A stretch of DNA of 33,710 nt from Acidobacteriota bacterium. GTDB taxonomy: Bacteria; Acidobacteriota; Terriglobia; Terriglobales; Acidobacteriaceae. The stretch covers positions 1 to 33,710 of the forward strand of contig JAJZHE010000010.1 in assembly GCA_021804655.1 (NCBI GenBank), written 5' to 3'. The notes beneath the pieces are model-generated. The model was not told the DNA's origin and did not search any database. It saw nothing but the letters and a program-made list of their open reading frames with translations. Position numbers and translations under genes: made by a program. How positions within the stretch are numbered: the first letter of the stretch is position 1; each line of letters opens with the position of its first letter. This document shows positions 25,479 to 33,010 of this stretch, in pieces.

Positions 25479-26540
25479 ATGCGTAAAGGAACGATCCAAA
25501 CCGCAGCACTGCTCTATGCCGCAGTCACCATCACCGCCGGCGTCCGGACGATGGCACAGAAGCCAGCCCTCGCCTCTCACCAGACAACGCCGCAGACCCT
25601 GCTCGCAACTCCACAGACCGTTGCCTGGGGATACTACTGGGCGCACGCGAAGCCGGTGATGACCGTGCACTCCGGCGACACCGTCACCATCCAGACGCTC
25701 TCCACCTGCGGCTCCGATGAGCGGCTGGAAAAAGAAGGTGTTGCGGCAAAGGATATTCCGCCGTACAACGAAGCGATCTTCCAGCAGGTCAAGGACCGCG
25801 GACCAGGCGGCCACATCCTCACCGGGCCACTGGCCATCGCTGAGGCCGAGCCGGGCGACGTGCTGGAAGTGGACATCCTGAAGATCAATCTCGACGCGCC
25901 TTTTGCCTGCAACGGATTCGGCCCGGGCCGGGGATTTCTGCCCAACGATTTTCCTTATGGGCGAACGAAGATCATTCCGCTTGATCGCCAGAAGATGCTC
26001 GCCCACTTTGCGCCCGGCATCGAAATTCCGCTGCATCCCTTCTTCGGCAGCATGGGCGACGCACCGCCGGAGTCCGCCGGTCGCATCGACAGCGCGCCGC
26101 CCTGGATGCACGGCGGAAACATGGACAACCGCGAACTGGTCGCCGGCACCACGCTCTATCTTCCGGTACACGCATCCGGCGCGCTCTTTGAAGTCGGCGA
26201 CGGCCACGCCGGCCAGGGCAACGGCGAGGTAGACATTACTGCGCTGGAAACCTTCCTGACCGGAACCTTTCGCTTCGTCGTGCACAAGCACCAGCATCTG
26301 CTGTGGCCGCGCGCTGAAACGCCCACCAGTTACATCACCATGGGTTTCAGCCCGGATCTGACGACGGCGACCAGGCTGGCCGTACGCGAGATGATCGACT
26401 TTCTCGTCACCCAGAAGCAACTCAGCCGCGACGATGCGTATATGCTGACCAGTGTTGCCGTGGACGTGGACATCACCCAGCTTGTGGATGGCAGCGTTGG
26501 CGTGCACGCAATCTGCCCGAAGAACATCTTCTCGCATTGA
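25479..26540 (+). CDS. Acetamidase/formamidase family protein with signal peptide
   Basis: AEPGDVLEVDILKI, HPFFGSMGDAPPE, WMHGGNMDNRELVAGTTLYLPVHASGALFEVGDGHAGQGNGEV. Confidence 0.92.
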   Translation: MRKGTIQTAALLYAAVTITAGVRTMAQKPALASHQTTPQTLLATPQTVAWGYYWAHAKPVMTVHSGDTVTIQTLSTCGSDERLEKEGVAAKDIPPYNEAIFQQVKDRGPGGHILTGPLAIAEAEPGDVLEVDILKINLDAPFACNGFGPGRGFLPNDFPYGRTKIIPLDRQKMLAHFAPGIEIPLHPFFGSMGDAPPESAGRIDSAPPWMHGGNMDNRELVAGTTLYLPVHASGALFEVGDGHAGQGNGEVDITALETFLTGTFRFVVHKHQHLLWPRAETPTSYITMGFSPDLTTATRLAVREMIDFLVTQKQLSRDDAYMLTSVAVDVDITQLVDGSVGVHAICPKNIFSH

Positions 26541-26625
26541 GGCGAATTGCAGCGATGATCCGGTCATCGTGGAAAAGTTCTGGCGAAGCATGGGCTGGTC
26601 GGCTTTACAATCATGCTTGCCACCC

Positions 26626-29600
26626 ATGCTGAATCCTGCCAGCCTGCTGTCGAAAAAGACCTCTCGCCGAGTCAGTTGCAGGATTGCGGCAGTCCTTTTT
26701 TGTGTCGCTTCCTCTCTGGCTCCATACGGCCTGCCAATGCAGGCCCAGCAGCGATCCCAGACCGCCCAGAGCGGCGCGGCAGGCTCTTCGATCGCGCGTT
26801 CCTCGTCCTCGGAGCAGGTTCAGCGCGTGGTGCTTTTGCTGCGCGGATCAGACGTGCAGCAAAAAGCTCTGGCTACGCTGCTGGACCAACAGCAGACACC
26901 GGGAAGCTCCGCATTTCACCAGTGGCTGACGCCCGCCGAGTTCGCTGCTCAATTTGCGCCCACAACCGCGCAGACTGCTGCTGTCACCCACTGGCTCACT
27001 GCGCAGGGATTGACCGTGGAGCCGCTGCCGACAAGTCGCCTATGGATTGTCTTCAGCGGAACGCGCGCTCAAGTGGAGACAGCGTTTCAGGCGCGATTGA
27101 CAACAGCCGGAGCGGATGCCGATGGTGTGCCCATTTTGCGCTTTGCCGCGCAGCCGGTGATTCCCCCGGCGATTGCTCAGCAGGTGGTCGGTGTGGTTTC
27201 CCTGGATGGCGTACGTGTGACAGCAGCGTTGACTCCAGCAGTGAATACAGACGCAGCGACACTTGCGGTAGCCAGCACGTCCAATCCCTCTCTCCCGCTG
27301 ACGCCCATGCTGCTGGCACAGACCGGCGCACTGATCGCGCCAGAGAAGACCGCTGCAGCAGCGCAAACCGGCGCTCAACTGAGTGTAGCGGCGGATGCGA
27401 ATACAAGCGGTGGAACGAATACCGGCACAGGAGCCACCATCGCGATTCCCACGCGCAGCAATCTGCGGCAGGAAGATGTCGCAGCTTTTCGCTCCGCATT
27501 CAACCTTGGCAGCGGTACGGGCCAGTTCGCCGTGCTGCCGGATGGGAACGACCCCGGTCGCACAACCGACGAATCTGCGGCCGCGGCGATGACCGATTGG
27601 GCCATGGCCGCTGCGCCCGGCGCTCAGGTCAACGTGATTCCCTCCGAGAGCACAAATGCGACCGATGGCCTGGACCTGGCCTTTGCGGCGGCAGTGAACC
27701 ATGCTGCGGGACATACGATTCTGCTCGGCTATGAATCCTGCGAGACAGCGATGAGCGCAGCCCACGCGGCCTTCTATGCCGCGCTGGACAAACTTGCCGC
27801 CGCCGAAGGCGTCGCTGTCGTTGCAGCCAGCGGCGACCACGGCGTGGAAGAGTGCGGCGCGACGAACAGCGCGCCCTCCACCGGCATGCAGAACGGACCT
27901 GCCGTCAACGCACTGGCTTCCACGCCCTGGAACCTGGCTGTTGGCGCAGCAACACTCACCTCCAGCAGCGCAGGAGGCAACTCTGCCGGGATTGCCGGCT
28001 GGGAACCGGCTTCGGCGACGGCGCAAGCCCAGGCGACAGGCGGCGGCGTCAGCGCACTCTACGCCACACCGACATGGCAAAGCGCGCAAGGGATGCCGAC
28101 AAGCGATCCGTCAACGGGCAGCGCATCCGGAAGCTCATCTGGCAGCGCATCCAGCAGCGGCGCAGCGCATCACCGCTACCTTCCCGACGTGGTCTTGCCC
28201 GCAGCATCCTCCGGCGCAGCTTTTTGTATGAGCGGAGCCAATCTGGCGGCATCCTGCAATGCGATGCAATCCAGTGGCAGTGCGATTGCAGCGGCGATGA
28301 TGGCCGGGTTGGCCGCTCGGCTTGATGCGCAATACGGCGCGCAGGGCAATCTGGCGCCGAATCTCTATCGCCTCGCGCGCATGGCGCCCTCAAATGCTTC
28401 CGGCACGACAACGAATGCAGCGAGTTCGCTTGCAACCGCCGCCGTGGCGCCTGCGACCCCGGTAAACACCTCGGCCACATCCGCTCCAGCGATTGTGGAT
28501 GTCACAACCGGTGGCAACCGGCTCTTCTGTGCCTCCGGCGCATGCTCTGCTTCCACCGCTGCGGATTCCACCGCCGGGCGCGTCGGCTTTGCCGCCGCTG
28601 TCGGCTACGATCTGGCAACGGGCCTGGGAACGGTGAATGCCGCTGCGCTGATGGCGCAATGGACGCGTCCCGATGCCACCGGAACCGATCAGGCTCAGGT
28701 GCTGATGACCAACCAGAACGGGTTGACCTACAACCCCTCCACCGACATCGATCTGACCGCCAAGGTTACCTCGCTCTCTGGCGGCGCGGTGCCCACCGGC
28801 ACTGTCCAGTTCTATGACCAGACCAGCCAGCAGAATGCAGGCACACCCGTCACGCTTGCCGCCGACGGCACAGCTTCTTACGTCGAACCCGCGCAGTTCA
28901 CCATTGGCGGTCACAACATCGAGGCCATCTACAGCGGCGACTCCACCTATGCGGGCGGAACCTCGCTGCCTGTCACTTTCAACATCCAGCCCAGCTCCAC
29001 CACGCTGGTCGTTGCGCCCTCCACAACCACGCCTGCCGCAGGAGCCTCCGTCACCGTCACCGGTACCGTGACCTCTTCGAATCCGGGCAACTCCCCACCC
29101 ACTGGCATCCTCACCGTCAATCTTGACGGCGTGCCGCAAGGCACAGCGAAGTTTGCCACCACCAGCAACGTGACCACCGCAAGTTACAACCTGACTTCGC
29201 CCACCTCCGGCTCACACACCCTGCAGGGCATCTACTCCGGAGACACCAACTACAACCAGTCCACTTCGCCTTCCGTCACCATCTCCATCGCAAAAATAGC
29301 AACGACCGTCTCGATCAGTGCAACCCCCAGCAAGCTGGCGCAGGGCACGCCCGAGAGCTTTACCGCGACCATTGCACCCGCTGCCGCCACCACCACTACG
29401 TACACCATCACCGGCACCGTTTCGTTCTATGACGGCGGAACCACGCTGCTGGGAACGGCTCCTGTATCCAGCAACGGCGCGACGCTCTCCGATATCGCCA
29501 TCTCCGCCGCCGTGGCCCACACCATCACCGCCGTTTACTCCGGTGACGCAACCTGGGCTTCCAGCACGAGCAGCCCTCTGGTTCTGGAGCCGATTCTGCA

Positions 29601-30462
29601 ACCGGTCACGGTTACCCTCACCAGCACCTCTGCCGTACTCTCACCCGGCCAGGCGGCAAACCTGACGGCAACAGTCACACCCGTCACCGCGCCTGCCGCC
29701 GCCATCGAACAGAACCCCACCGGCAACGTCTTCTTTTACGCTGGAACCCAGCTCATCGGCGAAAGTGCGCTCTCCGTCGGCATCGCCGACACCGCCGTCG
29801 CCACCCTCAACGTTCCCACCCTCCCCGGCGGAACCTACCAACTGACCGCCATCTACTCCGGCGATGCCATCTTCGGCCAGGCCACCTCCAACGCGCTCGG
29901 CTTTTCCGTCGAAAGCTTCACCATCGCTTCCACCACCACATCCATCACCATCACACAGGGACAATCGGCGACCGTTCCCTACACCATCACTGCAACCGGC
30001 GGGCTGACTGGGCCGATCCAGATTCTTTGCGGCGAGCAGAATCCGCCCACGGTCGGCGCCATCACCTGCACCTTCAACCCTTCGATTGTGAGTGGGACAG
30101 AGGCCGCGACCCTGACGATCACCACCTATCCGGGAACCATTCAAGCCGCGAACCATGCACCGCACCGGCCCGGCGGCGCGGCCAGAACCGGCGCATTGCT
30201 GGCCCTGGCCGGAGTCCTGCTGCTGCCGCTGGGCCGTCGACGCGCGCGCTGGCTGCGCCATGCCCATCTGCTGATTGCGCTTTGGTTCGTGGGCATCGCC
30301 TTCACCAGCCTTGGATGCAGCAGCACAACGCCCTCGTCCAACGGAACCAACACCAGCGGGACGCCGCTCGGCACGGCTACGCTACAGATCACCGGCGCGG
30401 CCTATGTCAACAACGTCACCGTCAGCAACCACAGCTATCTGTCGGTCAATGTGGTGCCCTGA
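26626..30462 (+). CDS. S53 (sedolisin/kumamolisin)-like protein with pro-domain and multiple Ig-like domains; catalytic dyad apparently lost
   Basis: Pro-kumamolisin-like domain, ASGDHGVEEC, AVGYDLATGLGTVNA, four Ig-like repeats with AIYSGD motifs, C-terminal hydrophobic tail. Start at MLNPASLL followed by signal sequence; ORF opens at 26452. Confidence 0.88.
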   Translation: MLNPASLLSKKTSRRVSCRIAAVLFCVASSLAPYGLPMQAQQRSQTAQSGAAGSSIARSSSSEQVQRVVLLLRGSDVQQKALATLLDQQQTPGSSAFHQWLTPAEFAAQFAPTTAQTAAVTHWLTAQGLTVEPLPTSRLWIVFSGTRAQVETAFQARLTTAGADADGVPILRFAAQPVIPPAIAQQVVGVVSLDGVRVTAALTPAVNTDAATLAVASTSNPSLPLTPMLLAQTGALIAPEKTAAAAQTGAQLSVAADANTSGGTNTGTGATIAIPTRSNLRQEDVAAFRSAFNLGSGTGQFAVLPDGNDPGRTTDESAAAAMTDWAMAAAPGAQVNVIPSESTNATDGLDLAFAAAVNHAAGHTILLGYESCETAMSAAHAAFYAALDKLAAAEGVAVVAASGDHGVEECGATNSAPSTGMQNGPAVNALASTPWNLAVGAATLTSSSAGGNSAGIAGWEPASATAQAQATGGGVSALYATPTWQSAQGMPTSDPSTGSASGSSSGSASSSGAAHHRYLPDVVLPAASSGAAFCMSGANLAASCNAMQSSGSAIAAAMMAGLAARLDAQYGAQGNLAPNLYRLARMAPSNASGTTTNAASSLATAAVAPATPVNTSATSAPAIVDVTTGGNRLFCASGACSASTAADSTAGRVGFAAAVGYDLATGLGTVNAAALMAQWTRPDATGTDQAQVLMTNQNGLTYNPSTDIDLTAKVTSLSGGAVPTGTVQFYDQTSQQNAGTPVTLAADGTASYVEPAQFTIGGHNIEAIYSGDSTYAGGTSLPVTFNIQPSSTTLVVAPSTTTPAAGASVTVTGTVTSSNPGNSPPTGILTVNLDGVPQGTAKFATTSNVTTASYNLTSPTSGSHTLQGIYSGDTNYNQSTSPSVTISIAKIATTVSISATPSKLAQGTPESFTATIAPAAATTTTYTITGTVSFYDGGTTLLGTAPVSSNGATLSDIAISAAVAHTITAVYSGDATWASSTSSPLVLEPILQPVTVTLTSTSAVLSPGQAANLTATVTPVTAPAAAIEQNPTGNVFFYAGTQLIGESALSVGIADTAVATLNVPTLPGGTYQLTAIYSGDAIFGQATSNALGFSVESFTIASTTTSITITQGQSATVPYTITATGGLTGPIQILCGEQNPPTVGAITCTFNPSIVSGTEAATLTITTYPGTIQAANHAPHRPGGAARTGALLALAGVLLLPLGRRRARWLRHAHLLIALWFVGIAFTSLGCSSTTPSSNGTNTSGTPLGTATLQITGAAYVNNVTVSNHSYLSVNVVP
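28700..29930 (+). repeat. Four degenerate Ig-like (Big_3-type) domain repeats within the S53-like gene
   Basis: Recurrent GTVxFYD...L/AIYSGDSTY...T units (AIYSGDSTY, GIYSGDTNY, AVYSGDATW, AIYSGDAIF). Boundaries approximate. Confidence 0.8.
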
Positions 30463-32551: not shown

Positions 32552-32596
32552 ATGCAAAAGAAAACCGTACGGGATATTGAGGTTAGGGCCAGTTAA
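32552..32596 (+). pseudogene. Possible N-terminal remnant of phosphoglycerate kinase truncated at the TIR element
   Basis: cggagg SD then MQKKTVRDIEV, resembling Pgk N-termini (e.g. B. subtilis MNKKTLKDIDVKGK); the reading frame enters the TIR at codon 12 and stops. Confidence 0.35.
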
Positions 32597-32853
32597 CCCT
32601 ACCAGGGCGGATGGCGTTGCGAGCGAAAATGGGGCCAGACAAGACGGAGGACGAGGGGTTTGGTGGTTCCAAATTCGAGTCCGACAACGAAGGATGGCCC
32701 CATTTTCTCCGCAACCCGAAGGGCTGGGGCCAATTTTTCCTCATCTCTTCGTCCTTCGTCGCTTGCATACACCCGGTATTCCGCTCTCCTCTCTCCTTGA
32801 TATGAGAAAAATTGGCTCCCGGCGCCACCGTCCGGGTAGGGTTAACTGGCCCT
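32585..32853. mobile_element. Putative MITE-like / structured non-autonomous element with ~26-bp imperfect terminal inverted repeats
   Basis: Left agggccagttaaccctaccAGGGCGG (32585-32610) versus the reverse complement of 32828-32853 (agggccagttaaccctaccCGGACGG), 24/26; two internal inverted repeats. Confidence 0.65.
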
Positions 32854-32884
32854 TAAGGGGAAGAGAGCAATCAAAGGAGAACGA

Positions 32885-33010
32885 ATGACAACAGGACGCG
32901 GCTGGAAGCTCGCAGCAACGACCAGAACAAAGCGCGTCTTCTCGGGAACGCTCCTGGGCACGTACAACATCGGAAGCTCGCGCATCGCAATCTTCAGTGT
33001 TCCAAAATAG
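32885..33010 (+). CDS. Candidate 41-aa small protein with strong Shine-Dalgarno
   Basis: aaaggagaacgaATG; MTTGRGWKLAATTRTKRVFSGTLLGTYNIGSSRIAIFSVPK*. Below the ORF-track length threshold. Confidence 0.35.
   Translation: MTTGRGWKLAATTRTKRVFSGTLLGTYNIGSSRIAIFSVPK

Follow-up and report, generated by a model that had tools for sequence, protein, structure and literature searches.

MITEs usually have conserved ends and an interior that decays. Among the described systems closest to the locus studied here, MITEPsy1 of Pseudomonas syringae is a non-autonomous IS5-type MITE of 100 bp with mobility demonstrated in vivo, with TIRs near-identical to those of an IS5-family IS, CTAG/YTAA targets and a 4-nt duplication (PMC3189936). 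Autonomous elements of the IS427 group measure 832-865 bp and have inverted repeats of mostly 13-21 bp, a direct repeat of 2 bp and two overlapping ORFs (PMC3281130). Other bacterial MITEs, such as QMITE2 of Coxiella, are intergenic and multi-copy and have predicted stable folded transcripts (PMC10969869).

The element described here lies in a 33,710-nucleotide stretch of acidobacterial DNA, which as a whole is termed the window. It is very likely a copy of a dispersed MITE family that is probably mobilised by IS5/IS427-type transposases. The family resembles MITEPsy1 in being non-autonomous, in its ends and in its target, but its members are ~270 bp long and are flanked by a TA repeat, and the accessible part of the MITEPsy1 report describes neither a conserved two-hairpin core nor an exchange of ends (PMC3189936). 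With the IS427 group of the IS5 family it shares the TIRs, the 2-bp repeat and putative partners of ~820-900 bp, one of which has two overlapping ORFs, but a transposase is missing, and the tested ISs are unrelated to its interior. Stable predicted folds, intergenic position and multiple copies are common to this family and to other bacterial MITEs (PMC10969869). It is set apart from them by TIRs that are more divergent than the interior, and covariation over the entire fold was measured here.

The window element and the gene that it splits

The whole MITE (GGGCC...GGCCC) occupies positions 32586-32852 on the plus strand, where the covariance model matches with 300 bits, and has copies in its own genome and in relatives; with the flanking A and T included (32585-32853), its length is 269 bp. 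The terminal and two nested inverted repeats that the preliminary description had reported are real, and the coordinates agree within a few bases. The left TIR, the 5' side of the outer stem (32585-32610, plus strand), pairs with the right TIR, the 3' side (32828-32853, minus strand), and both covary in 89 copies. Their arms of 26 nt are 92% complementary, with the inner 19 nt perfect, and within the whole window the TIR was found at these two sites only, with zero expected. In hairpin 1, the 5' arm (32625-32637, plus strand) belongs to covariation helix 4, which has double changes in 14 of its 21 pairs, and the 3' arm (32695-32707, plus strand) was recognized by inverted-repeat detection and covariation; these 13-nt arms are 100% complementary. 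Hairpin 2 has arms of 14 nt with a complementarity of 93%, the 5' arm at 32726-32739 (plus strand; covariation helices 11-13) and the 3' arm at 32806-32819 (plus strand; inverted-repeat detection and covariation). The predicted fold of the whole element has -142.9 kcal/mol, compared with -99.3 +/- 4.9 kcal/mol for shuffled sequences (z = -8.9), and 0 of 200 shuffles reached this value. A coding function, not credible already in the preliminary description, is rejected: no reading frame is open across all copies, and a Pfam search of the ORFs overlapping the window element matched no family. An Rfam search over the whole element likewise gave no match, even at E up to 1, and promoter- or terminator-like sites that were sought within the element were not found.

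The element splits a 62-codon small gene (32552-33010, plus strand; MQKKTVRDIEV...AIFSVPK) that has an uninterrupted homologue in the relative G008 (L180) and no Pfam or NCBIfam match. The 5' part is now 14 codons long; for the 3' part, a separate ATG is present at 32885. When the occupied site GAGGTTA/GGGCC...GGCCC/TTAAGGGG is compared with the uninterrupted sequence GAGATCAAGGGG of G008, the left and right copies of the target repeat, TTA, can be assigned to positions 32583-32585 and 32853-32855. At the corresponding place of a congener locus (L179; G012:C67:19080-19300), a different short hairpin, AGAACCTGTTCACCATCTTC...GAAGATCGTGAACAGGTTCT, is present, which suggests that another insertion took place independently close to this site. 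Elsewhere in the window, at 26452-30462, a large ORF with a pro-kumamolisin activation domain and Ig-like repeats encodes a probable secreted peptidase.

Copies, insertion sites and candidate partners

A single genome-wide copy without homologues elsewhere would have contradicted the preliminary description; blastn against the element's own genome and relatives, however, showed it to be multi-copy, with matches in 15 of 100 relatives. The window's own genome, an assembly of 87% completeness in 245 contigs, contains two more copies (C33 and C133), both running off contig ends, and a partial core (C170); as repeats are expected to break an assembly, it can be understood that these copies stop at contig breaks. 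Within the same bacterial family, a search with covariance model R1, which was built from 20 oriented copies, was positive in 31 of 200 genomes and in 13 of 79 genera. The copies per genome number ~30 in G119, 12 on one contig in G180 and 4 on one contig in G171. One congener copy is found on JAJZFR010000177.1, an Acidobacteria MAG, and none was found in the plasmid records searched. As is characteristic of MITEs, the copies are short, non-coding, bounded by TIRs and present at many unrelated sites. The literature searched, with incomplete coverage, contains no earlier description, and this is a new, previously unnamed MITE family that is spread through soil Acidobacteria.

Several related forms were also seen. 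Elements of 50-64 bp that consist of little more than two TIRs share genomes with full-length copies (L306, L307, L315-L317, L052, L082), and G181 has versions of 309-351 bp (L308-L313, L318) with the same core, the same TIRs and extra sequence. In addition, a ~95-bp repeat with GGCGTTTTCCGCAATGAAAACGCC, apparently representing a second dispersed palindromic family, directly adjoins several copies of G180 and G199 (L213, L214, L218, L221, L247).

Empty orthologous sites in relatives show that the element inserts cleanly. They came from a search of relatives with joined flanks, covering 16 junctions, with L019 and L030 left out; in G005, for example, the counterpart of the G003 copy at L044 reads ...GATTGTCT/AGGA, and in G013 that of L041 reads ...TTT/AGTTCATC. 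The target is YTAR, with the TA repeated at both ends. Two positions before the element, 85 of 87 copies have C or T, and two positions after it, 81 of 88 have A or G. An alignment of copies for ends and target-site duplications, as proposed in the preliminary description, gave TA on both flanks in 44 of 88 copies, and most of the others deviate on one side only. Alternatively, an A...T element might enter at Y^R and duplicate nothing. This fits copies with TA/TG and CA/TA as well as TGA stops at the orthologues of one site, but the TTA/TTA flanks of the window copy and the flanks of the ISs described below favour a short duplication.

The first base of the element converts the repeated TA into TAG, and an insertion at a stop codon would therefore leave the protein intact. 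Of 82 neighbouring genes oriented towards a copy, as judged by crude ORF calls, 32 end in such an edge TAG, composed of the flanking T, the repeated A and the first G of the element, which is an unusual feature; about 14% of the copies would be expected at a stop codon by the author's rough estimate, and the enrichment is modest by that rough figure. The edge TAGs probably reflect YTAR sites at stop codons together with purifying selection, and they illustrate how such an insertion can be harmless. Insertions would in general survive mainly where they do no harm. Copies between divergent genes and between convergent genes are equally frequent (21 each).

Which transposases may move the family? 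An 898-bp IS of G181, flanked by TTA/TAA, has a single ORF for a 275-aa transposase (P0001) that matches NF033580 (IS5 family) with 212 bits and contains the domains DUF4096 and DDE_Tnp_1. Its ends, GAGCCTGTTATTAAC, are identical to the MITE TIRs of G181 or deviate by one base, and a second TIR type, seen in other genera than the window's, agrees with one end of this IS in 17-18 of 18 positions. In G192, an IS of 818 bp with TA/GGGCGTGTTAACACTAT ends has two overlapping ORFs, which both match NF033580, each alone below the whole-protein cut-off. G002 and G014, which belong to the genus of the window, have relatives of the latter IS, with YTA/GGGCSTGTTCACACTAT ends, at the edges of contigs; the MITE TIRs of the congeneric genomes G014 and G006 agree with these ends in 15-16 of 18 nt, and the TIR of the window in 12-13 of 18, compared with 14 of 18 for the IS of G192. 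By their sequence features, the G181 and G192 candidates are placed in the IS427 group of the IS5 family. An IS5 transposase would thus recognize the TIRs of the MITE, move it in trans, and repeat the central TA of YTAR on insertion.

The window's own genome, with its 87% completeness and 245 contigs, yielded no IS whose TIR matches, and no close relatives of the G181 and G192 transposases were found in the copy-rich genomes G003, G006, G171 and G180. Searches of the genus with IS4/IS5 Pfam models recovered loci whose ends do not match the TIRs, because the true partners are broken at contig ends; the partners surfaced only when other genera were searched for the TIR pattern and for the proteins. 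When the MITE core was compared with three ISs by blastn, nothing beyond words of 8-12 bp was detected. The core is therefore unrelated to the tested ISs, and the element is not a simple internal-deletion derivative of an IS5/IS427 element. Dispersed copies, empty sites, the TA repeat in YTAR and autonomous IS5-family elements with the same TIRs all support the MITE-like non-autonomous transposon that the preliminary description had considered.

Conserved core, variable ends and the origin of the covariation

The mean pairwise identity is 76% in the core and 58% in the TIRs, a contrast that is favoured by the core-rich sampling of the model; that a single core occurs with more than one TIR type is independent of this. 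The window element and the G181 copy at L232 share 79% of the core and 38% of the TIR. Placing the four TIR types on a tree of the core takes 10 changes, of which well-supported branches force at least 4; the types were assigned coarsely, and the tree is a quick one. The conserved two-hairpin core has been carried by at least two types of IS5 TIRs, with several exchanges of the TIRs. The ends have thus been replaced time and again around a folded interior that did not change, which is unusual.

The arms are kept among homologues with compensatory changes, and in 89 copies 60 of 77 pairs are altered on both sides. Standard pairs fill 93.4% of the paired cells, compared with 78.2% after shuffling and at most 48.6% after sliding, and the covariation score is 0.409, compared with 0.139 and at most 0.076, respectively; the pair counts lean towards the model, to which the alignment had been fitted, but the slid control is far away. 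Mismatches in the outer stem are evenly split (GT in 74, AC in 66 cells), and this absence of a strand bias speaks against a single RNA strand being under selection in that stem. Such even mismatches suit a recognition of both ends by the transposase or a template-switch correction. The inner stems have no consistent strand signal.

What keeps the arms complementary? Selection could act on the nucleic acid in its folded form, or template-switch repair during replication could be responsible. Stems are known to arise and persist through template switching (PMC8794818), and in this family a correction of quasipalindromes at the hairpins might restore the arms mostly by mutation, without selection on the fold. 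In favour of such a correction, pairs of the outer stem change straight from one Watson-Crick type to another, transversions included (for example TA 51, AT 29); wobble intermediates are few, and a strand bias is absent. However, it leaves unexplained why the core is conserved in paired and unpaired positions across 13 genera while the TIRs vary, and recognition of both ends by a transposase would couple the TIRs as well. We thus regard a mainly mutational origin of the covariation as quite possible, though short of probable. Less likely still, the core might be a functional structured RNA under selection, such as a stabiliser of mRNA 3'-ends, an attenuator or a small RNA, with transposition being only the way in which it spreads. 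Conservation and covariation of the fold, which the preliminary description had proposed to check, stood up to analysis: compensatory change is strong beyond the TIRs, in the inner hairpins, the core is better conserved than the TIRs, and in an insertion shared by G180 and G199 the element is 97.4% identical, compared with 88-93% in the 700-bp flanks. Yet in this insertion the near right flank equals the element in conservation, and the even mismatches of the outer stem, the inner stems without consistent strand signal, the failure to match Rfam, the element's lack of promoter- or terminator-like sites and the equal frequency of divergent and convergent gene settings speak against the RNA itself being selected.

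The suggestion of a REP-like element is not supported, and the IS5-type explanation fits better. A palindrome of the REP/BIME type mobilised by a RAYT (Y1 transposase) would be in line with the short hairpin forms of 50-64 bp that have the same TIRs, but the symmetry of the TIRs, the YTAR target with its repeated TA and the existence of DDE elements of the IS5 type that share these ends speak against it, as does the absence of a GTAG/GGAG foot, including one of the 5' GTAG type; such a mechanism is highly improbable.

For the dispersed, IS5-mobilised MITE family that we favour, the relation between core and ends is the important point. Interior and fold are conserved, whereas the ends vary by lineage and match different transposase types, and this is unlike the usual definition of a MITE. 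The core could be an independently conserved module that gains ends for successive, different IS5 transposases, with the fold as a heritable unit that has its own function at the RNA or DNA level. This idea is tentative and rather doubtful; if it is true, the two-hairpin core would be a parasite of several transposons. The family is a test case for partner switching by non-autonomous elements, and also for the question of whether strong covariation in a repeat results from structural selection or from template-switch correction.
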